Shown: piece after piece, positions 23,758 through 50,839 of the stretch | How positions within the stretch are numbered: position 1 is the stretch's first letter | Layout of the letters: every line of letters begins with the position of its first letter | From: Betaproteobacteria bacterium | GTDB lineage: Bacteria > Pseudomonadota > Gammaproteobacteria > Burkholderiales > Eutrophovitaceae | Direction: 5' to 3' | NCBI GenBank assembly: GCA_020354125.1 | Contig: CP070643.1 | Location: forward strand, 2,478,488-2,542,487 | DNA: 64,000 nucleotides | The notes under the pieces: model-generated | Seen by the model: only the letters and a program-made list of their open reading frames with translations | Database searches by the model: none | What the model was told of the DNA's origin: nothing | Translations under genes and position numbers: made by a program

Positions 23758-24486
23758 ATGGACGCCATGACAACCGCGTTGGAGTTCTTCGGACTGAGCA
23801 AACGTTACGGCACGATCGAGGCGGTGTCTTCGCTGTCGATGAGAATTGGAACGGGAACGACGTTCGGTCTGGTTGGTGCAAATGGCGCGGGCAAGACAAC
23901 GCTCATCAAATGCCTGCTGGATTTTTGCGCGATTGATGGTGGGCGTATCAATATCTTCGGTGTTCCGAGTAGCCGCACCGAAGCGCGCAGTCGGCTCGCT
24001 TTCCTGCCAGAGCGATTCGTCCCGCCCTATTACCTCACGGCAAGGGACTTCTTGCACTTGATGGCTCGGATGTACGGCCGTGACTTCGATCTACAGGAGT
24101 CCGTGAACATGCTCGCTACACTCGATCTGGAGCCCGATGTGCTGGCCCGTCCGGTCAGATCGCTGTCCAAGGGCATGACCCAGAAAATCGGATTGGCCAG
24201 TTGCTTGCTGAGTGCGCGCGAACTGCTGGTCCTCGATGAACCCGGTAGCGGCCTGGACCCGAAAGCGCGTGCGCTATTCAAGGCGGCGGTGCGCTCTGCG
24301 CACGCCGCCGGCCGAACGATATTTCTGACCTCTCACTCACTGGCTGACGTCGACGAAATGTGCGATCAGATCAGCGTCATGCACCGCGGAGTGCTGCGCT
24401 ATAGCGGCAACCCGGCACAAATGAAGCAGCAGTACGATGCAGCCTCTCTGGAGCAAGCGTTCCTTAACTGCATTGGAGAAAATTAA
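23758..24486 (+). CDS. ABC transporter ATP-binding protein (orphan, pilus-locus flank)
   Basis: ABC-2 type ATPase of about 242 residues. Walker A GANGAGKTT, signature SLSKGMTQK and Walker B LLVLDEPGSGLDP are present; the signature has K in place of the usual second G (LSKGM). ATG 23767 is an alternative start. There is no permease beside it: the next gene, on the same strand, is the sigma-54 activator. An ABC-2 permease without an ATPase lies at 41209-42012 on the other side of the pilus genes and is the likely partner. Exported substrate unknown. Confidence 0.85.
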   Translation: MDAMTTALEFFGLSKRYGTIEAVSSLSMRIGTGTTFGLVGANGAGKTTLIKCLLDFCAIDGGRINIFGVPSSRTEARSRLAFLPERFVPPYYLTARDFLHLMARMYGRDFDLQESVNMLATLDLEPDVLARPVRSLSKGMTQKIGLASCLLSARELLVLDEPGSGLDPKARALFKAAVRSAHAAGRTIFLTSHSLADVDEMCDQISVMHRGVLRYSGNPAQMKQQYDAASLEQAFLNCIGEN

Positions 24487-24513: not shown

Positions 24514-24530
24514 ATGGCACGATTGTTGCC
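24514..24530 (+). promoter_or_regulatory. Sigma-54 promoter of the response regulator/pilus operon
   Basis: TGGCACGATTGTTGC (24515-24529) matches the RpoN consensus TGGCACG-N4-TTGC with exact GG-N10-GC spacing (GG 24516-24517, GC 24528-24529). It lies 34 bases before the activator's GTG start, so the activator may control its own operon. Confidence 0.85.
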
Positions 24531-24563: not shown

Positions 24564-26000
24564 GTGACCAAATCCCCCGAAGACAACAAACCGGACCTGC
24601 TGATCGTCGACGACGATCCGCTGATAACGGATACCCTCGACTTCGTGCTGGGCAAGGACTACAACGTGAGCGTTGCCGAGTCCCGCTCCCAGGTCAAAAG
24701 CCTGCTCAGGCAACTGGGCACGCCACCGGAGTTGGCGCTCATTGACCTTGGCTTGCCGCCTGCACCGCACCGACCGGACGAAGGGTTTCACCTGATCAGC
24801 GAACTGCTGGCGGTAGCACCAGCAATGAAAATCATCGTGCTTTCAGGGCAGACCGATGAGTCGAATGCGCGTTACGCGCGCACCCTTGGCGCGATGGATT
24901 TTGTTGCCAAACCGGCGGAACCCGAACACCTGAAATCCGTGCTGGCAAGCGCGCGCGAAGTCGCGGTCGTTGAGCAAAAGGAGAGCGTGCCCAAGAGCGG
25001 GCTAATCGGCAATGGGCCGGCCATTTCCAAACTGCACCAGCAGATCGAACAATACAGCGCTTCTAATTTTCCGGTTCTCGTCGAGGGCGCCTCAGGCAGC
25101 GGCAAGGAACTCGTTGCCAACTCATTACATCGCCAGAGCCCGCGCAGTGACAAGCCATTCCTGGCACTGAACTGCGCCGCGATTTCACCGACGCTGGTCG
25201 AACCAACGCTGTTCGGATACAGCAAAGGTGCATTCACGGGCGCGACAACAGCACGGCCCGGTTACTTCGAAGATGCCCGTGATGGCACGCTATTCCTTGA
25301 TGAGATCGGTGAACTCCCGCTCGAGCTTCAGGCCAAGTTGCTGCGCGTGCTTGAAAATGGCGAGTATCAGCGGGTGGGCGAGACCCAAAGCCGTGTCAGC
25401 AATGCGCGGGTGATCGCGGCGACCAACCGTGATCTTCGAAACGAGGTTAAAGAGGGGCGGTTCAGAGCGGACTTGTATCACCGGCTTTCGGTATTTACCG
25501 TGCAGGTCCCACCGTTGAGGGATTTGGGCGAGGACAAGTTACTATTGCTCGAGCATTTCTCCGCGTTCTATGCACAGGAAAGCAACGTCGAACCGTTCCT
25601 GCTCGATGCCGGCGCCAGAAGACTCTGGCTCGAATACGAATTCCCGGGCAATGTGCGAGAACTGCGAAATATTGTCATTCGGCTCAGCACCAAGTACCCG
25701 GGCAAGAGCGTAACGATGGAGCAACTGCTCAACGAACTTGACTGGGAGGACACAGATTCCGCTCCGCCATCAACGAGCCCCGAGCCCGCCGCTACGACTG
25801 ATGCGGCACGCCAACGCCTGCAGCGGGACAAGAACTTCCAGCTCGATCAACTGCTCAAGGAGCTCGAACGCAGTTATGTCGAGGCGGCACTCGAGCTGAC
25901 TCACGGGAATCTGAGCAAGGCGGCACGAATGCTGGGCATTCACCGCACGACCCTGTACAGCCGGATGCAAAGCTACGAGCAAACATCCCGGGAAGAGTAA
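24564..26000 (+). CDS. Sigma-54-dependent response regulator (NtrC/PilR type)
   Basis: Two-component activator of RpoN promoters, 478 residues. The receiver domain (about 12-135) has the acidic pocket VDDD and the phosphoacceptor D61 in LIDLGLP. The AAA+ domain has Walker A GASGSGKE (175-182), the sigma-54-contacting GAFTGA (222-227), Walker B LFLDEIGE and the arginine finger region FRADLYHRL. A Fis-type helix-turn-helix (about 440-472, NLSKAARMLGIHRTTLYSRM) binds DNA. Starts at GTG behind a sigma-54 promoter, and is followed after 4 bases by the pilus genes. The probable partner kinase is at 39251-41011. Confidence 0.93.
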   Translation: MTKSPEDNKPDLLIVDDDPLITDTLDFVLGKDYNVSVAESRSQVKSLLRQLGTPPELALIDLGLPPAPHRPDEGFHLISELLAVAPAMKIIVLSGQTDESNARYARTLGAMDFVAKPAEPEHLKSVLASAREVAVVEQKESVPKSGLIGNGPAISKLHQQIEQYSASNFPVLVEGASGSGKELVANSLHRQSPRSDKPFLALNCAAISPTLVEPTLFGYSKGAFTGATTARPGYFEDARDGTLFLDEIGELPLELQAKLLRVLENGEYQRVGETQSRVSNARVIAATNRDLRNEVKEGRFRADLYHRLSVFTVQVPPLRDLGEDKLLLLEHFSAFYAQESNVEPFLLDAGARRLWLEYEFPGNVRELRNIVIRLSTKYPGKSVTMEQLLNELDWEDTDSAPPSTSPEPAATTDAARQRLQRDKNFQLDQLLKELERSYVEAALELTHGNLSKAARMLGIHRTTLYSRMQSYEQTSREE

Positions 26001-30776: not shown

Positions 30777-32486
30777 ATGGCCGAGCAACGAAAGAAGCTC
30801 CGTCTGGGCGAGTTACTCGTCCAGCAAGGACTAATCACCCAGGATCAGCTGCGCATCGCGCTGACTGAGCAGACCGCCCAGAAGAACGTACCCCTCGGCC
30901 GTTTGTTGGTGCGCTTGGGATTCGTCACCGAGTCGGTAATTCGCGACATCATGGCGCGAACCATCGGCCAGGAAAGTATCGACCTGAATCAGGTCCTGGT
31001 CGATGCCGAAGCGCTGAGCCTGGTGCCGCAGGAATTCGCCCGCCGGCAACGACTGTTGCCAACCGCATTCAATGCAGAAAAGAGCGAACTGACTGTCGCC
31101 ATCACTGAAGTGTTTAATCTGGCCGCACTCGATCAGCTCCGCGCCATGGTCGGCAGCAACGTGCAGATCAAAACCGTACTCGCTGGTCAGGCGCAGCTCG
31201 ACGACTTCATCGACCAGTTCTACGGTTTCGAACTGTCGGTCGACGGCATCCTGCGCGAAATCGAGACCGGTGAACTTGATTACCAAAGCCTGCAGCAGGA
31301 CACCAGCGATGAATATACTCAGCCGATCGTGCGACTGGTTGGCGCACTGCTGGTCGATGCCGTCAAACGCGGTGCATCTGATGTGCACTTCGAGCCCGAG
31401 TATGCGTTTTTGCGCATTCGTTACCGGATCGACGGCGTGTTGGAGCAGGTGCGCAGCCTGCACAAGAATTACTGGGCCGGTATCGCCGTTCGCCTGAAAG
31501 TGATCAGCGGCATGAACATCGCCGAGACCCGGGCACCCCAGGACGGTCGCATTTCCTTGAATCTGAATGGCCGACCAGTCGATTTTCGCGTGTCCACGCA
31601 ACCGACTATCTGGGGGGAGAACATCGTATTGCGGGTGCTCGACCGCGAGAAGTCAATCATTTCCCTCGAGCACATGCGCTTGCCGCAAGACATGTTGGCG
31701 AAACTCAATTTGATGCTCGCCCGGCCCGAGGGCATCCTCATCATCACCGGCCCAACCGGAAGCGGTAAAACCACGACGCTGTACTCCATGCTCGCCAAGT
31801 TAAACGTCGAGTCGGTCAACATCATGACGCTTGAGGACCCGGTCGAGTATCCGGTTGCACTCATGCGCCAAACCTCGGTCAATGAGTCTGCTCGCGTCGA
31901 CTTCGGCAGTGGCATTCGATCGATCATGCGTCAGGACCCGGACATCATTCTGGTCGGCGAGGTGCGTGACCAGGACACGGCAGAGATGGCTTTTCGGGCG
32001 GCCATGACGGGGCACCAGGTTTTCACCACATTGCACACCAACTCGGCGCTTGGAACGTTTCCGAGGCTGCTTGACATTGGGATCGCGCCTGACATCATGG
32101 CCGGCAATATCATCGGCATCATGGCACAACGGCTGGTACGCACCCTGTGCACAAATTGCAAGGAAGCCTACACACCAAACGCCGAAGAACGACTGTTGCT
32201 CGGCAGTGTCGACGACCCGGAACTGAAGCTGCACCGTCCGGTTGGCTGCACAGCGTGCAATAACCGCGGTTACAAAGGCCGTGTCGCCGTGCTGGAGATC
32301 CTGCATATGGACGCAGACATGGATGAATTGGTTGCGCGGCGCGCCTCGCCAAGGGAACTACGCGAGGCCGCGTTCACCAAGGGCTTTCGAACGCTTGCCG
32401 ACGAAGGACTGCAGCGCGTTCTAGAGGGTGTGACCAGCCTATCGGAAGTTGCACGGGCTATCGACCTTACCTCACGCGCAAGATAA
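30777..32486 (+). CDS. mshE: Pilus assembly ATPase MshE (GspE family) with MshEN domain
   Basis: Cytoplasmic hexameric motor for pilus extension, 569 residues. The N-terminal MshEN domain has RLGELLVQQG-L-ITQDQLRIALTEQ (9-32), the c-di-GMP-binding signature of MshE, and a second copy PLGRLLVRLGFVTES about 10 residues later. The motor domain has Walker A GPTGSGKT (325-332), Walker B ILVGEVRDQDTA and the His box TTLHTNSA. Four zinc cysteines are C458, C461, C491 and C494. Pilus extension is therefore probably controlled by c-di-GMP, as in Vibrio MSHA. Confidence 0.95.
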   Translation: MAEQRKKLRLGELLVQQGLITQDQLRIALTEQTAQKNVPLGRLLVRLGFVTESVIRDIMARTIGQESIDLNQVLVDAEALSLVPQEFARRQRLLPTAFNAEKSELTVAITEVFNLAALDQLRAMVGSNVQIKTVLAGQAQLDDFIDQFYGFELSVDGILREIETGELDYQSLQQDTSDEYTQPIVRLVGALLVDAVKRGASDVHFEPEYAFLRIRYRIDGVLEQVRSLHKNYWAGIAVRLKVISGMNIAETRAPQDGRISLNLNGRPVDFRVSTQPTIWGENIVLRVLDREKSIISLEHMRLPQDMLAKLNLMLARPEGILIITGPTGSGKTTTLYSMLAKLNVESVNIMTLEDPVEYPVALMRQTSVNESARVDFGSGIRSIMRQDPDIILVGEVRDQDTAEMAFRAAMTGHQVFTTLHTNSALGTFPRLLDIGIAPDIMAGNIIGIMAQRLVRTLCTNCKEAYTPNAEERLLLGSVDDPELKLHRPVGCTACNNRGYKGRVAVLEILHMDADMDELVARRASPRELREAAFTKGFRTLADEGLQRVLEGVTSLSEVARAIDLTSRAR

Positions 32487-38404: not shown

Positions 38405-39169
38405 GTGACCGCTTTGACCTCCAGACGCACCCTGATCACAGCGACGTTAGGGAAATACGCCGGCGGCTTCTCGCTGATCGAGTTGTCGGTCGCGATTATC
38501 GTGATCGCCTTGCTGCTGGGCAGCCTCCTTGTTCCTCTGTCTACCCAGGTCGACCAGCGCCGCTACGCAGAGACAGAAAAGCAGCTTGAGCATGTCCGGG
38601 AGGCAGTGATCGGTTTTGCGCTGGCCAATCGGTACCTTCCTTGCCCGGCAGTCTCAGCCACGGATGGACGTGAAGACCGCGACACAGGCACTGGTCAGTG
38701 CACCGATGTCGGGGGGAGTCCCAAACGTGACGGGTTTCTGCCGTGGGTGACGCTCGGTGTCACGCCTTCCGACGCGTGGAACAACCTCATCCGTTACAGC
38801 GTTGACCCCGATTTCGCCCGATCGGACCCGAATTTCTTTTTCACTCTCGCAAGCTTAGGCGACATTCGAGTGCGCACCCGCGACCAAGGAGGGACACTGG
38901 TCGATCTGACCAATGTCGAGATTCCGGCCGTAATCCTGTCACACGGCGAAAACGGCTTCGGCGCAACCTCTTCAGCGGGTGTTGCCCGAACGGTGCCGGG
39001 CGGTTGGACCGGCGACGAAAGCGACAACGCGTCTAACACGACGCTGTTCTATTTCCGGACTCGCAGCGAGGTCGCCACCGTGACCGGCGGCGAATTCGAT
39101 GATGTCGTCACTTGGGTATCCCTGAATCAGTTGTTTGCGCGCATGGTCAGCGCCGGCCGCTTGCCCTGA
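38405..39169 (+). CDS. Prepilin (minor pilin candidate)
   Basis: 254 residues starting at GTG 38405. A 21-residue basic leader ends in GG, cut before FSLIELSVAIIVIALLLGS, with Glu at +5: a textbook type IV prepilin site. The ectodomain has YLPCPA, then GFLPWVTLGVTPSDAWNNLIRYSV and IPAVILSHGENGFGA. These match in order the PCP...LPW...VIF segments of the preceding large protein, so the two share an ectodomain family. Last gene of the pilus operon; no terminator was seen before the convergent kinase gene. Confidence 0.85.
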   Translation: MTALTSRRTLITATLGKYAGGFSLIELSVAIIVIALLLGSLLVPLSTQVDQRRYAETEKQLEHVREAVIGFALANRYLPCPAVSATDGREDRDTGTGQCTDVGGSPKRDGFLPWVTLGVTPSDAWNNLIRYSVDPDFARSDPNFFFTLASLGDIRVRTRDQGGTLVDLTNVEIPAVILSHGENGFGATSSAGVARTVPGGWTGDESDNASNTTLFYFRTRSEVATVTGGEFDDVVTWVSLNQLFARMVSAGRLP

Positions 39170-39250: not shown

Positions 39251-41011
39251 CTAAGCTTGTGCGACCTGCGCTTGCTCCGCGGGCGCCAACTCAAAGCAGA
39301 CGCGGCCGGGTTCGTTCGATACCAGCCGCAGCTCGTAGCTACTCTCCCTGGCATAGCGGCCCGCCTGATACAAGCCAACACCGAGCCCGGTTTTGGAGGA
39401 CGACACGGGCGATTCAAACAAGCGCTCCACAACAGAATCGGCAACGGGTTCTCCATCGTCACAGACGTTCAGAGCGTACCCGCCGTCGCGCGCTCGCAAT
39501 GTAATCGTGATCGACAAGCCGGGTGAAAGGCGCCGCTTTAGTAAGGCATTCTGCAGCAGGTTGTCGCTGACGCTGTCAAACAACTCGGCATGCAAGGTGC
39601 CGTCGCTATCGGGGGTGAGCCCTGTCTCGAGAAAGGTCACCGGTTCATAGGCAAACCGTCGCTTCAGACCCTCCCACCAGTCAAACGCTTTCGACTGTTC
39701 ACCAGCGCTACTGACATCGCTGGCCAGTTTATCCAAGGTGATCTGCAAGCGTTGCGCGATTTGCGGCAATTGGCGCCGCATTAACCACCGTACTGCCTCT
39801 GCGTCGGCTTCGCCACTGGTCTCAGCTGCATTGCACAGCGACCGCAGAGACTGCAACAGATTCTTCACGTCATGTGTCAGACGCGAGCCCGTTTCATAGA
39901 TCGCCTGCATATACGCATTGCGTCGCTGCTGCGCCGCCCTCACCTTGCTCTCGTAATAATCGCCCAGCAGCCGCGCCAGCAAACGAACATGCAGCACCAA
40001 TGCCGGGCTCGGCGAGAAGCGCGTATACACGGCAATGCCCAAGCCACCGAACGAAAATTCGGTGATGTGCTTGGTCCGCTCGCCAACCTCGCCGTTGCTC
40101 GCCACCGCTTTCCAGCGCACGCCGGACACCCACGGCAAAACCGCCAGTTCCTGGGCCGCGAGCACCGCGAACTGGTCCGCGTCGTCGACACGCTCGGCAA
40201 TTGCCGCGAGGCTGTGCATCCAACGCTCGAACGGAATACCGACACTGAGGAAATAGCGAGTGACAAGTTGGCCAATCCCGACAAAACCGGCCCGCGGATC
40301 CCACAGCAACGACAATACGATCAGGAACAGAGCAATGCCAAACAGCGTCTGCGTCAGTGCCACGATGTAATTGCCATGGCTGATCTGTTTGATCACGAAC
40401 GAGCCAAGCACCAGCACCACCACCAACAGGAAAAGCAACACGCTGTAGAACAGGTCCAGGGCGTAAACAGTCTGGCGTTCGGTTTTCTGGGGGCGAATGA
40501 AGAAAATCAGCGCCGCCGGAATCAGCAGACCGTACGTTACAGTCGCCTGCACAACAGGCGGGATCGTCTGCTCCTCGAACAGGTGGGGCACCACCCACAT
40601 CAGCAGGACAGACAACAGATACAGCGCCGCGAGCATCGACCCGATACGCTGGCGGACGTTTCGGATGCCGGGCATGTTGCCGCCGATCAGGGAGAACAGC
40701 ACTGATATCCACAGTGCCATCAACCACCAACTTCCGGCCGCCACCAGCACCGCTCCGGCAACCAGAATCAGCACCACCTGCCTGACCACCAGGCGCTGCT
40801 CTCCGCGCCATAACGGCTGCCACAGCAGGAACAGGCCAAAGTGCGTCGTCAACAGCGCTCGCGCCAGAGGGTCCGACAGCTCCAGGATCAGGCCGCCATG
40901 CAAGGCCAACAGCATCAGCGACAGCCAGTGCTCCTGGCGCAGGGCTCCGATCAACCGGGTCGCCTTTGTTTCAGATACTTGCTCTGACGCCGGGTTGATC
41001 TCAACGGACAT
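39251..41011 (-). CDS. Membrane sensor histidine kinase
   Basis: 586 residues. The N-terminal half is polytopic (about eight helices between residues 25 and 255). A GAF-like linker (about 270-360) follows, then the kinase core: H-box RLTHDVKNLLQSLRSL with H380, N-box SDNLLQNALL, and G-boxes DDGEPV and GLGVGLY. HDVKN in place of HE(L/M)xN resembles the PrsK-like kinases. No receiver gene is adjacent, but the pilus operon it converges on begins with an activator lacking an adjacent kinase, so they are inferred to be one pair. PilS-type kinases have a similar role for type IV pili. Confidence 0.88.
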   Translation of the reverse strand: MSVEINPASEQVSETKATRLIGALRQEHWLSLMLLALHGGLILELSDPLARALLTTHFGLFLLWQPLWRGEQRLVVRQVVLILVAGAVLVAAGSWWLMALWISVLFSLIGGNMPGIRNVRQRIGSMLAALYLLSVLLMWVVPHLFEEQTIPPVVQATVTYGLLIPAALIFFIRPQKTERQTVYALDLFYSVLLFLLVVVLVLGSFVIKQISHGNYIVALTQTLFGIALFLIVLSLLWDPRAGFVGIGQLVTRYFLSVGIPFERWMHSLAAIAERVDDADQFAVLAAQELAVLPWVSGVRWKAVASNGEVGERTKHITEFSFGGLGIAVYTRFSPSPALVLHVRLLARLLGDYYESKVRAAQQRRNAYMQAIYETGSRLTHDVKNLLQSLRSLCNAAETSGEADAEAVRWLMRRQLPQIAQRLQITLDKLASDVSSAGEQSKAFDWWEGLKRRFAYEPVTFLETGLTPDSDGTLHAELFDSVSDNLLQNALLKRRLSPGLSITITLRARDGGYALNVCDDGEPVADSVVERLFESPVSSSKTGLGVGLYQAGRYARESSYELRLVSNEPGRVCFELAPAEQAQVAQA

Positions 41012-41208: not shown

Positions 41209-42012
41209 ATGTCGAAGTCTATTGCAAATCCGGCTTTGATGCCGCTAACGGCCCGCATCCTGGCCATCGCCCGCTACACCGTCCTCGAAGCGTGGCGTAA
41301 TCGGTCGGTTTTTCTGCTGATCGGAATGGTCGTCCTTGCTTTGCTGCTCAGCCTGTTCGTCCGCCAGCAGGCCATCACTGAATCAGACCGCGCTCAGGTC
41401 GCCTTTCTCGCCAGCATCACCCGGCTCGGATCAGTGTTTCTGCTTGCAATTACCGTTCTTCAGGGGTCGGTACGGGAGTTTCAAGACAAGGTCCTGGAGT
41501 TGATGCTTTCGCTTGACCTGCCACGTTCCGCGTATCTTGCCGGCAAGTTTCTCGGTTACGCATTACTCGCCGTCGGCTACGGCGCAATCGCCTCCTTACC
41601 GCTGCTGCTGCTGTCAGACCCCCTCAACGTATTCCGTTGGAGCATCACCCACATATTTGAACTGTGGATCGTGATCGCTTTTGCGCTGTTTTGTATCACC
41701 GCATTCTCCCAACTATTGGCGGCCGCTACATTCGTGCTGGCGTTCTACCTGCTGGCCAGGTCGATCACTGCGATTCAACTTATCAGCCAGTCGACCCTGA
41801 GCGGACCCGGCCCGGCCAGCGACTTTGCAGCATTGCTTGCCGACGCGATCGCACTGGTGCTGCCACGCCTCGACGCCTTCACCCAGACAGCATGGCTGGT
41901 TGAGGCCATCGCTGAGCCGCTGTCAATGACAGGCGCAATCGTGCAGACGTCGATTTACGTCTCGCTCCTGCTGTGCGCGGCGATGTTCGACCTGCACCGC
42001 AGGAATTTCTGA
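41209..42012 (+). CDS. ABC-2 type transporter permease
   Basis: 267 residues with about six helices: a first helix after a basic amphipathic N-terminus (IARYTVLEAWRNRSVFLLIG), a cytoplasmic coupling region GSVREFQDKVLELMLSLDLPRSAY, and hydrophobic helices to the end. No ATPase is beside it; the orphan ATPase at 23758-24486 is the best partner. Divergent from the kinase gene across 197 bases, and 21 bases before the helical-repeat gene. Substrate unknown. Confidence 0.82.
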   Translation: MSKSIANPALMPLTARILAIARYTVLEAWRNRSVFLLIGMVVLALLLSLFVRQQAITESDRAQVAFLASITRLGSVFLLAITVLQGSVREFQDKVLELMLSLDLPRSAYLAGKFLGYALLAVGYGAIASLPLLLLSDPLNVFRWSITHIFELWIVIAFALFCITAFSQLLAAATFVLAFYLLARSITAIQLISQSTLSGPGPASDFAALLADAIALVLPRLDAFTQTAWLVEAIAEPLSMTGAIVQTSIYVSLLLCAAMFDLHRRNF

Positions 42013-42033: not shown

Positions 42034-42762
42034 ATGGCAAAACAGCGAGAGGTTGGTAGTGTTCCGGGCTGGGTTCGCTGGTTATTGCCGGCATTGCTGG
42101 TGGCACAGATCGCGTTTCGCCTGGCCGAGCCGGCTCCGGCCGCGGTGGCCGCGCAACTGGGCCCACCCCCGGCATTGGACTCGTTGCGCCTGGCCGCCCT
42201 GGGCGAGCCAATTGGGCTCGCGGTCGCGCTATCTCTGCGCCTGCAGGCGTTTGATACCCAGCCTGGCGTCAGCATCCCGTTTCGCGAACTCGACTATCAG
42301 AATATTGAGCGTTGGTTGGATCGTATCGTGATGCTCGACCCGCACAGTGCTTACCCTTTTCTACTCGCGTCACAGCTCTATTCCCAAGTGCCCGACGAAG
42401 CGAAGCAACGCATCATTCTCGACTTCGTGTTCCGCAAGTTTCGCGAGGATCCGGTCCGGCGTTGGCGCTGGCTGGCCCACGCGTCGATTATCGCCAAGCA
42501 CCGGCTGGGCGACCTGCAACTGGCGCTGATCTATGCTCGCGCCATCGCCACCGACGCAAACGACCCAATGGTGCCGTCCTGGGCGAGACAAATGCACATC
42601 TTTCTGTTGGAGGATCTCGGCGAACACGAGGCTGCCAAGATCCTGCTAGGCGGCTTGTTGGCGAGCGGAACTGTGAACGACGCAAACGAAGCACGCTTTC
42701 TGATGGAGCGTTTGGAGGCGCTTGAGCCTGACGAGATCTCGACAGAATCGTCGAGACCATGA
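42034..42762 (+). CDS. Membrane-anchored helical-repeat (TPR-like) protein, unknown function
   Basis: 242 residues. One hydrophobic helix at about 13-29 acts as anchor or uncleaved signal. The rest is alpha-helical with TPR-like spacing, for example IERWLDRIVMLDPHSAYPFLLASQLY and RLGDLQLALIYARAIATDAND (read in parts). No catalytic motif was seen. It follows the ABC-2 permease by 21 bases and precedes the sigma-54 pilin, so a part in export or pilus function is likely but unproven. Confidence 0.65.
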   Translation: MAKQREVGSVPGWVRWLLPALLVAQIAFRLAEPAPAAVAAQLGPPPALDSLRLAALGEPIGLAVALSLRLQAFDTQPGVSIPFRELDYQNIERWLDRIVMLDPHSAYPFLLASQLYSQVPDEAKQRIILDFVFRKFREDPVRRWRWLAHASIIAKHRLGDLQLALIYARAIATDANDPMVPSWARQMHIFLLEDLGEHEAAKILLGGLLASGTVNDANEARFLMERLEALEPDEISTESSRP

Positions 42763-42973
42763 CAACGTAATCGCTCTCAGCAATCGCTTCAAGCTCAATA
42801 TCGTTACCTGCATGTCATGCGCGATTCCCCCTGAGCCAAGCTGACGACGCGGCTTCAACTTATTGTTTTTATGTGGATTATGTAGCGCGGCGTGGAAATC
42901 GGATCGGCGCCGACACAGCCCGGGGACAGGTATCGCGCTGGCCACCGGCCGATCGAAGGAAGTCGGTCTTGGG

Positions 42974-42989
42974 TGGCACGGAACTGGCA
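42974..42989 (+). promoter_or_regulatory. Sigma-54-type promoter of the pilin gene
   Basis: TGGCACGGAACTGGCA (42974-42989) has GG at 42975-42976, ten bases, then GC at 42987-42988. The -24 element is perfect (TGGCACG) and the -12 element is TGGCA rather than TTGCA. Start of transcription would fall near 43000, some 23 bases before the pilin ATG. An inverted repeat GCATGTCATGC lies upstream at 42810-42820 and could be an activator site. Confidence 0.7.
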
Positions 42990-43022
42990 CCAGGGTTCAG
43001 CACAACACGCTTGGAGATAATG

Positions 43023-43712
43023 ATGGTTCAAAAACAGACCGGGTTTACATTGATCGAGATTGCGATCGTGCTGGTCATTATCGGCTTACTGCTTGGGGGA
43101 GTACTCAAGGGCCAGGAGTTGATCACCAGTGCACGTGTTCGCAACCTGATTTCGCAGCAGGATGGCGTGAAAGCTGCCTTCTTTGGCTTCCAGGACCGTT
43201 TCCGCGCCTTTCCGGGGGATTACACCGGCGCCACGGCCAACATTTCCGGTGTTGCCACTGCCGCGTGTAATGGCGGCAATGGCGACGGCGATGGCCGGAT
43301 CGAGACCGCCAATAACGAATACATCTTGGCATGGGAGCATATGTCCAAGGCGGGATTCATTGCTGGCAGCTATACCTGTGCCGCTTCCGAGGGCGCAACC
43401 ACGACGCCAGTCAACCCATACGGTATGTATCTGCAGGTCATCTACGATGGTGTCTATGGCGGCGGCTCGTCTCCACAAAGACACAATATAAAGACCGGCC
43501 CGCAGATTCCAGTTGGATTGATGTTCCAAATGGACCAGAAAATTGATGATGGCAGTCCGAACACCGGCACGTTCCAGTTCTCGACCTTCGCCGCACAGGG
43601 GACAGCGCCAACAGGTGGCTCCGGCACCGCATGCACCAGTGCGACCGCGGCGAGCGGCGCCTGGAACACGACCAACGGCAACACCAATTGCGGCGGTGCA
43701 AGCCTGCTCTGA
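43023..43712 (+). CDS. Type IV pilin (major-pilin candidate)
   Basis: 229 residues. A 7-residue leader ends MVQKQTG, cut before FTLIEIAIVLVIIGLLLGG with Glu at +5. The start at 43023 is set by GGAG 6 bases upstream; the frame is open back to 42873 but that part covers the promoter. The ectodomain has FRAFPGDYTGA, a motif of a widespread pilin family, glycine/asparagine-rich loops and paired cysteines. It has its own sigma-54 promoter and strong terminator, so it is a single-gene unit, as expected for an abundant pilin. Confidence 0.9.
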   Translation: MVQKQTGFTLIEIAIVLVIIGLLLGGVLKGQELITSARVRNLISQQDGVKAAFFGFQDRFRAFPGDYTGATANISGVATAACNGGNGDGDGRIETANNEYILAWEHMSKAGFIAGSYTCAASEGATTTPVNPYGMYLQVIYDGVYGGGSSPQRHNIKTGPQIPVGLMFQMDQKIDDGSPNTGTFQFSTFAAQGTAPTGGSGTACTSATAASGAWNTTNGNTNCGGASLL

Positions 43713-43768
43713 CCGCACTCGTCAGAGACGGACCGCGCTCGTCAAGCTGGTCTGAACGAGCAATCTGA

Positions 43769-43795
43769 AGAGCCCGCATTAGCGGGCTCTTTTTT
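43769..43795 (+). terminator. Rho-independent terminator of the pilin gene
   Basis: A 9-bp perfect stem AGAGCCCGC/GCGGGCTCT (43769-43777 with 43782-43790), a 4-base loop, and TTTTT from 43791. The stop codon of the convergent antiporter gene (43796-43794) lies inside the T-tract. Confidence 0.93.
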
Positions 43796-45764
43796 AGCCT
43801 TGCAGCATGAACATTTCGGCTAACGCCAGCGATTCCTGCGCGCCGCGCAACACAATCACATCGCCCTCCTGAACCCGCGTTTCCGGCTCGGGGAACTGAC
43901 TACGAATATTGCGCTGCCGGATCGCGGTCACCTCGACGTTGAAGCGCCCCAGATCAAGCTCCCGCAGCGTCTTGCCGATCGCTGCCGCTCCGGTCACGAT
44001 TAACACCGAATGCAGCCTGACTTGCATGTGGTCGCTCGCTTCTTCCGGTTCATCCGTGGCGCCATGGTAGAAACCACGGAACAGGTCATAGCGCTGCTCT
44101 CGCGTGTCGCGGATGCGCTGTAGCACGCGATTGAATGGCACACCGAGCAACATCAGCGCGTGTGCTCCCAGCATCAGGCTGCCTTCCAGAATCTCTGCAA
44201 CGACTTCAGCTGCACCGGCTTGTTTGAGCTGATCGATGTCACTGTCATCCAGGGTACGCACCACCACCGGCAAGCCGGGCCGCAACTCCTGCACCAGGCT
44301 CAGAATCCGCAATGCGGAGGCAGTGTCAGCATAGGATACAACAAGCGCATTGGCGCGCAGCAAACCCGCCGCGATCAATACCTCGCGTCGGGCTGCATCG
44401 CCAAATACCACGCTTTCACCGGCGGCGGCAGCTTCACGCACGCGCTGCGGATCAAAATCCAGCGCAATGAAACCTACGCCTTCGCGTTCGAAGAAGCGGG
44501 CAAGATTCTGTCCGCTGCGCCCGTATCCACAAATGATCACGTGCTGCTCGGCGCCCATGCTCTGCACCGCGATGTTGTGTAACGCCATGGCGCGGTTCAT
44601 CCATTCGGCACCGCTGAAACGGCGCACCATGTGCTCGCTGTATTCAATGAGGAAGGGCGAAATCAGCATCGACAGTATCAGGGTTGCCAAGGCGATTTGC
44701 GTCCTGACGTCGTCAATAACGGCGAGGTTTGTGGCTTGCGCAAGCAATACCAGACCAAATTCCCCGGCACCCGCCAGCGCCAGCGCTGATCGCAACGACA
44801 CCGAGGCATCGGTACCGAACAGACGTCCGAGACTGGCGACGATCACCGTTTTTCCCACCAGTATCAAAACCAGCAGGCCAAGGATCCAGTACCAGTAGTC
44901 GACCAGCGCTGCCGGATCGAGCATCATGCCGACAGTGACAAAGAACAAGCCCAGCAGCACATCGCGGAACGGCTTGATGTCCTGCTCGACCTGATAGCGG
45001 TATTCCGTTTCAGAAATCAGCATGCCGGCGAGGAACGCACCCAGTGCCAAAGACAGTCCGGCCAACTCGGTAACCCAGGCGAGTCCAAGCGTGATCAAAA
45101 GCACGTTGAGCACGAACAACTCGGATGACTTTTGCCGAGCAACCAAAGTGAACCAGGGCCGCATCAATCGCTGTCCGAAATAGAGCAGCACCACCAGCAC
45201 TAGCGCGGCCTTGACCACCGCAAGGCCGAGCGCCACCAGCACCGTTTCCGCACCCCGCGCCAGTGCCGGTATCACGATCAGCAGCGGCACCACCGCTAGA
45301 TCCTGAAACAGCAGAATCCCGACAATCTGCCGGCCATGCGGCGAATTCAACTCGAGCCGCTCAGACAGCATCTTCGCCAGAATTGCGGTCGACGACATCG
45401 CAAACACCCCACCGAGCACCAACCCAGCACGCCAGTCAGCACCCGTTGCCATGGAGACAAAAACGATTAGAACGGTGGTAATTCCGACTTGTGCCGCACC
45501 CAGACCAAACACCAGGCGGCGCATGGTCAGCAGTTTGGCCAGGCTGAACTCGAGCCCGATACTGAACATGAGGAAGACAACACCGAACTCGGCGAGATAG
45601 CGCGTCTCGGCACTGTCACTGACAAGACCAAGCGCATTTGGCCCGATCAGTACGCCGACGAGCAGATAGCCGAGCAGCGCCGGCAGCGCGAGCAAGCGAA
45701 ACACGGCCACAACAACCACTGCTGCGAGCAGCAGAATCAGGACCAGTTCAAGCGTGCCGTGCAT
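43794..45764 (-). CDS. Kef-type monovalent cation:proton antiporter (CPA2) with RCK domains
   Basis: 656 residues. Residues about 1-385 are a CPA2 exchanger with about 12 helices (GEFGLVLLAQA, SSTAILAKML, FQDLAVVPLL). A TrkA-N/RCK NAD-binding domain follows (HVIICGYGRSGQNLARFF with the Rossmann glycines), and a TrkA-C domain ends the protein (about 570-650). Likely potassium or sodium/proton exchange across the inner membrane under redox or nucleotide control. A gene of this kind commonly lies next to kdsD in gammaproteobacteria. Divergent from kdsD. Confidence 0.9.
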   Translation of the reverse strand: MHGTLELVLILLLAAVVVVAVFRLLALPALLGYLLVGVLIGPNALGLVSDSAETRYLAEFGVVFLMFSIGLEFSLAKLLTMRRLVFGLGAAQVGITTVLIVFVSMATGADWRAGLVLGGVFAMSSTAILAKMLSERLELNSPHGRQIVGILLFQDLAVVPLLIVIPALARGAETVLVALGLAVVKAALVLVVLLYFGQRLMRPWFTLVARQKSSELFVLNVLLITLGLAWVTELAGLSLALGAFLAGMLISETEYRYQVEQDIKPFRDVLLGLFFVTVGMMLDPAALVDYWYWILGLLVLILVGKTVIVASLGRLFGTDASVSLRSALALAGAGEFGLVLLAQATNLAVIDDVRTQIALATLILSMLISPFLIEYSEHMVRRFSGAEWMNRAMALHNIAVQSMGAEQHVIICGYGRSGQNLARFFEREGVGFIALDFDPQRVREAAAAGESVVFGDAARREVLIAAGLLRANALVVSYADTASALRILSLVQELRPGLPVVVRTLDDSDIDQLKQAGAAEVVAEILEGSLMLGAHALMLLGVPFNRVLQRIRDTREQRYDLFRGFYHGATDEPEEASDHMQVRLHSVLIVTGAAAIGKTLRELDLGRFNVEVTAIRQRNIRSQFPEPETRVQEGDVIVLRGAQESLALAEMFMLQG

Positions 45765-49414: not shown

Positions 49415-50839
49415 ATGAAGCACTCACTGCAGCTCAAGCTGTCTCAGCACCTGACGCTGACGCCACAGTTGCAGCAGTCGATTCGTCTTCTGCAGCTGTC
49501 GACGCTGGAACTAAACCAGGAGATCGAGCGCTTCCTGCAGGAGAACCCGCTGCTGGAGCGTGAGGAGGAAGAAGAGTCGCAGGAAGCGGCTGCCCCGGCA
49601 GGGCAGGAGGCGACCGTCGCGACGACGACCAGTTCCAGTGAGGTTGCAGCACCGGAGCAGCCAACGCAGCCGGAATGGACTGGCGAGGAGGGATACAGCT
49701 CATACGGCACTCCCGAATCGGACGATGACGACTCAGAGCAACCGCAGGCTGCCGGGCCCGCCAGCCTTCGCGATCATCTTCTTTCCCAGTTGTCATTGAT
49801 GCAGCTCTCCGAGCGAGACACACATCTGGTCGCTTACCTGATCGACAATCTCAACGATGACGGGTTTATTCAGGACGAGCTCGAGGAACTGGCCGCACTG
49901 TTACCGGAAGAGCTCGAAGTCGACAGCGAAGACCTAGGCATCGCGCTGAAGTACCTGCAAAGCCTGGAACCCGCCGGGGTCGGCGCGCGCAATATCGGAG
50001 AGTGCCTGGCGCTGCAAATTGAAGCACTGCCGGAGGACACCCCATTCCGCTCCCAGGCTTTGCAGGTTGTACGTGATCACCTCGATACGCTGGCAGTTCG
50101 CGACTACACAAAACTAAAGAAAATCCTGCGCTGTGACGATGACACGCTACGAGGCATCCAGAACCTGATCACCCACCTGAATCCGAGGCCGGCAGCGAAC
50201 TATACCGGTGGGGAGGCCCGATATGTGGTGCCCGATGTGATCGTGCGCAAGATAAAAGGAATGTGGGTTGCCTCCCTAAACCCTGACGCGATGCCAAAAT
50301 TGCGGGTTAATCGCATGTATGCTGACATTCTTCACCGCAACCGCGATGCCAGCTTGCAACAACTTTCGGGTCAGTTGCAGGAGGCCAAGTGGCTGATCAA
50401 GAATGTGCAGCAGCGATTCGATACGATCCTGCGTGTATCGCAGGCGATCATCGACCGGCAGCGACACTTTTTTGAACACGGCGAAGTCGCCATGCGACCG
50501 CTTGTGTTGCGCGAAATCGCCGAGACGCTGGACCTTCACGAATCAACCGTGTCACGGGTGACAACCCAGAAATTTATGTTCACGCCGAGGGGCATCTTCG
50601 AACTCAAGTATTTCTTCGGCAGCCATGTGACCACCGAAACCGGCGGTGCCTGTTCGGCGACCGCCATTCGTGCGCTGATCAAACAACTGGTTGGCGAAGA
50701 GGACCGGCGCAGTCCGCTGTCGGACAGTCAGATTTCAGAGATTCTCGGCAAGCAGGGTATTGTCGTGGCACGCCGAACAATCGCCAAATACCGCGAATCG
50801 CTGCAGATACTCCCCGTCAATCTGCGCAAATCAATCTAG
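49415..50839 (+). CDS. rpoN: RNA polymerase sigma-54 factor
   Basis: Alternative sigma factor that recognises -24/-12 promoters and needs an AAA+ activator. Region I is glutamine- and leucine-rich (MKHSLQLKLSQHLTLTPQLQQSIRLLQ). An acidic region II spans about 50-110. The core-binding and DNA-binding regions follow, ending with the RpoN box ARRTIAKYRE (452-461). 474 residues. It should serve the two sigma-54 promoters of the pilus region in this window. Confidence 0.97.
   Translation: MKHSLQLKLSQHLTLTPQLQQSIRLLQLSTLELNQEIERFLQENPLLEREEEEESQEAAAPAGQEATVATTTSSSEVAAPEQPTQPEWTGEEGYSSYGTPESDDDDSEQPQAAGPASLRDHLLSQLSLMQLSERDTHLVAYLIDNLNDDGFIQDELEELAALLPEELEVDSEDLGIALKYLQSLEPAGVGARNIGECLALQIEALPEDTPFRSQALQVVRDHLDTLAVRDYTKLKKILRCDDDTLRGIQNLITHLNPRPAANYTGGEARYVVPDVIVRKIKGMWVASLNPDAMPKLRVNRMYADILHRNRDASLQQLSGQLQEAKWLIKNVQQRFDTILRVSQAIIDRQRHFFEHGEVAMRPLVLREIAETLDLHESTVSRVTTQKFMFTPRGIFELKYFFGSHVTTETGGACSATAIRALIKQLVGEEDRRSPLSDSQISEILGKQGIVVARRTIAKYRESLQILPVNLRKSI

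Follow-up and report, generated by a model that had tools for sequence, protein, structure and literature searches.

The pilin gene at positions 43020 to 43712 of the window (the whole 64,000-nucleotide stretch of DNA that was analysed, part of a 4.24-Mb single-contig genome) is very probably controlled by a sigma-54 promoter with a tandem enhancer and an IHF-type site in front of it, activated by a two-component pair composed of the NtrC-family regulator encoded from position 24564 and the histidine kinase encoded at 39251-41011. Within this circuit, the 16-mer at 42974-42989 would be the functional promoter of the pilin gene and of the conventional enhancer-dependent type: a −24/−12 element is present, palindromic sites are located upstream of it, and the genome contains rpoN. 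The parts of the pilin cistron and the sigma factor gene are the following.

42974-42989, forward strand: putative sigma-54 (RpoN) −24/−12 promoter TGGCACGGAACTGGCA, assigned by an 11/12 consensus match and by conservation
43020-43712, forward strand: type IV prepilin (GFTLIEIAIVLVIIGLLLGGVLKGQELI) of 230 amino acids, PF07963 above cut-off, relatives 49-72% identical
43767-43796, forward strand: predicted intrinsic terminator behind the pilin gene, with a hairpin of −23.6 kcal/mol and a z score of −4.8
49415-50839, forward strand: rpoN, the sigma-54 gene, whose matches to the three sigma-54 domains of Pfam all exceed the cut-off

Consensus scoring of TGGCACGGAACTGGCA gave 11 of the 12 informative positions of TGGCACGN4TTGCW. 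A sequence-only reading of this DNA had named the site and its exact GG-N10-GC spacing, and both stood; the distance to the pilin ATG at 43020 was corrected from 34 to 30 nt, counted from the end of the site, with a second ATG (43023) at 33 nt. The Shine-Dalgarno sequence is GGAGATA at 43013-43019, and the transcript is predicted to start near position 43000. Evaluation of the score needs to consider the number of sites expected by chance on both strands of the 64-kb window. Two sites with a score of at least 11 (at 42974 and 24515) were seen versus 0.6 expected, and 14 with a score of at least 10 versus 7.3 expected, so that window-wide the motif score alone is not significant and is weak evidence.

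Related pilins were gathered from whole genomes and named genome contigs, which yielded 87 usable upstream regions. A GG-N10-GC site with at least 9 of 12 matches and not more than 150 nt from the start codon was present in 70 of these 87 regions, compared to a mean of 2.9 and a maximum of 7 in shuffled sequences; with a threshold of at least 10/12, the respective numbers were 59 regions and 0.6 in Markov shuffles. The usual position of the site in the relatives was 50-70 nt 5' of the start codon. Because of this conservation, the site at 42974-42989 is more than a chance match, which bears out the initial proposal that a sigma-54 promoter drives a lone pilin cistron. The proposal that this cistron possesses its own terminator was also borne out: a simple terminator scan missed it, and folding picked up a hairpin, AAGAGCCCGC-ATTA-GCGGGCTCTT, followed by a T run directly 3' of the pilin gene, with the energy and z score listed above.

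A motif search without any supplied seed identified a palindrome, TGTCGA-N4-TCGACA with the consensus TGTCGAAATTTCGACA, as common to the pilin upstream regions. In the window, it occurs as a tandem, and a further inverted repeat is located between this tandem and the promoter.

42727-42746, no strand assigned: candidate upstream activator site 1, the palindrome CCTGACGAGATCTCGACAGA, which scored highest within the 64 kb in models trained without this genus
42747-42766, no strand assigned: candidate upstream activator site 2 (weaker), ATCGTCGAGACCATGACAAC, at a spacing of exactly 20 bp to site 1
42810-42820, no strand assigned: inverted repeat GCATGTCATGC (GCATG-T-CATGC), judged to be outside the system

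The palindrome was found in 61 of 63 non-redundant promoters used for training, a count that refers to a model constrained to be palindromic and to input regions selected for having the promoter site. In a held-out test, the motif search was begun from random starts on half of the loci with this genus excluded, and three runs recovered the motif in 31/31, 30/31, and 25/31 of the remaining loci versus 1.2 to 2.2 in shuffles; the 25/31 run had settled on an alternative register composed of two adjacent half-sites. All three runs placed the best match of the whole 64-kb window inside 42727-42756. The orthologous loci most often contain two copies at a spacing of 20 bp, as the window does. Some regulator-positive loci, for instance L024, have no clear enhancer.

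Site 1 overlaps the 3' end of the upstream gene (42034-42762), and such an overlap exists in many betaproteobacteria, albeit in two different reading phases, while the palindrome is intergenic in other loci. Protein coding therefore does not explain the motif, and an origin of the enhancer as a by-product of coding was rejected. The inverted repeat at 42810-42820, which had been suggested as the activator site, had no counterpart in the 62 remaining non-redundant regions; it is present only in the genome of the window, and the conserved sites are those at 42727-42766. Among 26 other sites with sigma-54 consensus sampled in the genome, none had a nearby enhancer with a score of at least 10. Definition of a genome-wide regulon by loose motif counts was tried and abandoned as too unspecific, with 232 matches per strand versus 137 for the reversed pattern. 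With the enhancer motif, new genomes can be searched for the pilin of this kind of system, and a regulated copy can be distinguished from a stray paralogue.

Between enhancer and promoter, in an A+T-rich stretch at 42854-42883, is an IHF-like site:

42856-42868, reverse strand: IHF-like site AAACAATAAGTTG, one mismatch to WATCAANNNNTTR

Sites of this kind with at most one mismatch were present in 29 of 58 orthologous enhancer-promoter spacers versus 8.5 in shuffles. In the proposed promoter, an IHF-type bend site near this position would thus lie between the tandem palindrome and the −24/−12 element.

The regulator and kinase genes are listed next, together with a second sigma-54-like site that precedes the regulator gene.

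24515-24530, forward strand: other sigma-54-like site, 11/12 match, before the regulator gene
24564-26000, forward strand: NtrC-family response regulator with receiver, sigma-54 AAA+, and Fis-type HTH domains (Pfam), the putative activator
39251-41011, reverse strand: membrane histidine kinase with the H-box HDVKN and a HATPase_c domain, the putative partner of the regulator

The regulator carries the GAFTGA loop at residue 222, and its DNA-reading helix, GNLSxAARxLGxxRTTLYSRM, is conserved in beta- and gammaproteobacteria. The kinase adjoins the pilin module even in genomes with the regulator gene far off (e.g., G035, G037, and G039). All 22 kinase-positive relatives also had the regulator, and 36 of the 61 relatives had neither of them. 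The promoter site was scored in two sets of 30 genomes each. In the first, made up of relatives that encode a related pilin, 22 of 24 regulator-positive genomes had the site but 0 of 6 regulator-negative ones (Fisher p 4.7e-5). The second set was more distant, and the first pilin of tandem copies was used; here the site was present in 22 of 24 genomes with and 1 of 6 without the regulator (p 8e-4). These genomes share ancestry and are not fully independent, which inflates both p values somewhat; several genomes are incomplete metagenome-assembled genomes (MAGs), and the regulator-negative group possibly includes pilins that are not strict orthologs. The exception in the second set, L103, is an incomplete MAG of 1.5 Mb, regulator-negative and nevertheless with promoter and enhancer. 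L074 and L076 are regulator-positive with a promoter site of only 8/12.

These phylogenetic profiles, together with the conserved tandem enhancer, indicate that the link between the pilin and the regulator at 24564 drawn by the sequence-only reading is probably right. The activator of the pilin gene is most likely this regulator, with the tandem palindrome at 42727-42766 as its candidate binding sites. In response to a presumed signal, the orphan membrane kinase would phosphorylate the regulator, and the activated regulator would lead to sigma-54-dependent transcription of the pilin gene. The pilin of an MSHA-like pilus would thus be made on demand, with the machinery encoded in a separate upstream operon.

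The outlined circuit needs to be weighed against other origins of the pilin transcript. The 16-mer may be a chance match and the pilin gene transcribed by sigma-70 instead, since about 0.6 such sites are expected per window of this size and two were seen. The conservation in 70 of the 87 related promoters argues against this, as does the absence of the promoter where the regulator is missing, and a promoter scan of 42600-43850 found no sigma-70-type site; this is the least probable of the alternatives and hardly credible. Slightly less remote, although still quite improbable, is activation of the sigma-54 promoter by another NtrC-family regulator, be it NtrC, a GlrR-like protein, or an unassigned one. 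The genome encodes NtrC (L114), a GlrR-like regulator (L116), and others, but none of these genes is linked to the pilin, and an NtrC-type protein is the best remaining match in the regulator-negative genomes that are without the promoter site.

Alternatively, the promoter may be activated by PilR, as in the pilA case of the pseudomonads, which the sequence-only reading had seen mirrored here. The genome does possess a true PilS-PilR pair, separate from the genes considered here, at about 4.235 Mb (PilR at C1:4235792-4237159), and the enhancer half-site TGTC loosely resembles published PilR elements. In Pseudomonas aeruginosa, PilR controls pilA via sigma-54 (PMC6058289). PilR does not track the promoter, however, because 25 of 26 genomes examined have an ortholog, among them 5 of the 6 in which a related pilin is not preceded by a sigma-54 site, whereas the regulator at 24564 does track it. 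This regulator is 38% identical to PilR of the same genome over residues 12-469 and is not PilR; the kinase beside the pilin is not PilS. As the activator, PilR was rejected, being a separate gene whose presence the sigma-54 site does not follow, and we regard its involvement as unlikely, if somewhat less so than the other two alternatives. From the pseudomonad analogy, the sigma-54/NtrC-type logic remained, but neither PilR as the regulator nor a pseudomonad-type PilA as the pilin applies here.

The circuit with the 24564 regulator shares with PilS-PilR-RpoN/pilA of P. aeruginosa and Myxococcus xanthus a membrane kinase, an NtrC-family GAFTGA regulator, and a sigma-54 promoter directly before the pilin gene. 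It differs by another kinase and regulator, the genes of which lie on opposite strands with about 13 kb between them, by another palindromic enhancer, and by the MSHA-like machine. In NCBIfam, the kinase and the regulator match PrsK and PrsR of the PEP-CTERM system best, respectively, but the scores are far below the cut-offs of TIGR02916 and TIGR02915 (42 versus 300 bits for the kinase and 366 versus 503 for the regulator).

The pilus operon and the genes around it provide the context of the pilin gene:

23758-24486, forward strand: ABC ATPase, PF00005
26005-39169, forward strand: MSHA-like pilus operon with MshM, L, N, E, G, I, and J-like genes, further genes, and a prepilin gene at 38405
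41209-42012, forward strand: predicted ABC-2 type permease with 7 predicted membrane segments, assigned by weak ABC-2 Pfam matches below cut-off, hydropathy, and its place as a conserved neighbour
42034-42762, forward strand: protein of 242 amino acids with an N-terminal helix and TPR-like helical repeats, assigned by an AlphaFold model (pLDDT 89) and as a conserved neighbour

The gap between the end of the operon at 39169 and the pilin gene is 3.85 kb, in agreement with the 3.8 kb given previously. Pfam matches to secretin, T2SSE, and T2SSF families in the operon, and the MshL and MshE-type matches given below, assign the machinery as MSHA-like. As in the MSHA loci of Vibrio and Shewanella, there are a MshL-type secretin, a MshE-type ATPase with the c-di-GMP motif, and a comparable gene complement. 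The MshL protein scores just under its family cut-off (TIGR02519, 239.9 versus 250.2 bits), and the assembly ATPase (30777-32486) exceeds the cut-off of the MshE-type c-di-GMP motif (NF053729, 59.5 versus 38). Pilus assembly may accordingly be controlled by c-di-GMP, separately from transcription of the pilin gene. In contrast to the MSHA loci, the window adds a dedicated sigma-54 activator with its kinase, an ABC transporter, and the TPR-like protein.

The order pilus operon, kinase on the opposite strand, ABC-2 permease, TPR-like protein, and pilin is conserved. Comparison of the TPR-like protein with PDB structures gave weak TPR matches, none of them confident. The genes for ATPase and permease are separated by the pilus operon in the window, where the ATPase gene precedes that of the regulator. 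In gammaproteobacterial loci, an ortholog of the ATPase (43-55% identity) is encoded directly downstream of the pilin, and because of this position, both components are suggested to form one transporter tied to the pilin. PilG/PilH/PilI of M. xanthus is an ABC transporter required for pilus assembly (PMC3724824), also encoded as permease, ATPase, and an extra protein beside pilin and kinase/regulator genes; the likeness is one of gene arrangement alone.

No description of this pilin circuit was found in the open-access literature. With some reservation, we favor the view that it represents a so far undescribed two-component regulon of Beta- and Gammaproteobacteria for one MSHA-like pilin, consisting of an orphan kinase beside the pilin, an NtrC-family activator at the head of the pilus operon, and a new tandem enhancer of TGTCGA-N4-TCGACA type. 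An ABC transporter and the TPR-like protein would be linked to it and may serve in handling of the pilin or in supplying the signal. A widespread MSHA-like pilus, the transcriptional control of which was not found described in the literature searched, would thereby have a specific regulator, a kinase, and an enhancer assigned to it, and the circuit indicates sigma-54 control of pilins beyond PilSR.

Other pilin copies differ in their upstream DNA. A paralogue in the same genome (L002, C1:4067512-4068216, at about 4.0675 Mb) is 72% identical, and no pilus gene was seen nearby. Its upstream region has kept TGGCACGGAA, with AC replacing the −12 GC, and contains no enhancer motif, so that this distant paralogue has, judging from the DNA, lost both promoter and enhancer elements. 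Other orphan or second-copy pilins are likewise without a sigma-54 site. Some Burkholderiales genomes contain tandem arrays of 4 to 5 related pilin genes at this locus (L061 and L085, downstream of 10001 in these records).

Three members of the genus have retained the 24515 site ahead of the regulator gene, but it could not be recognised in any other genus that was examined. No enhancer motif was found beside it, and a promoter at this position is less well supported than that at 42974-42989. Autoregulation of the regulator operon by the same enhancer was rejected, the motif being absent from all regulator promoters examined except L132. Upstream of the regulator gene in L132, an enhancer-like palindrome (score 12.7) lies beside a TGGCAC element, and autoregulation is possible there.
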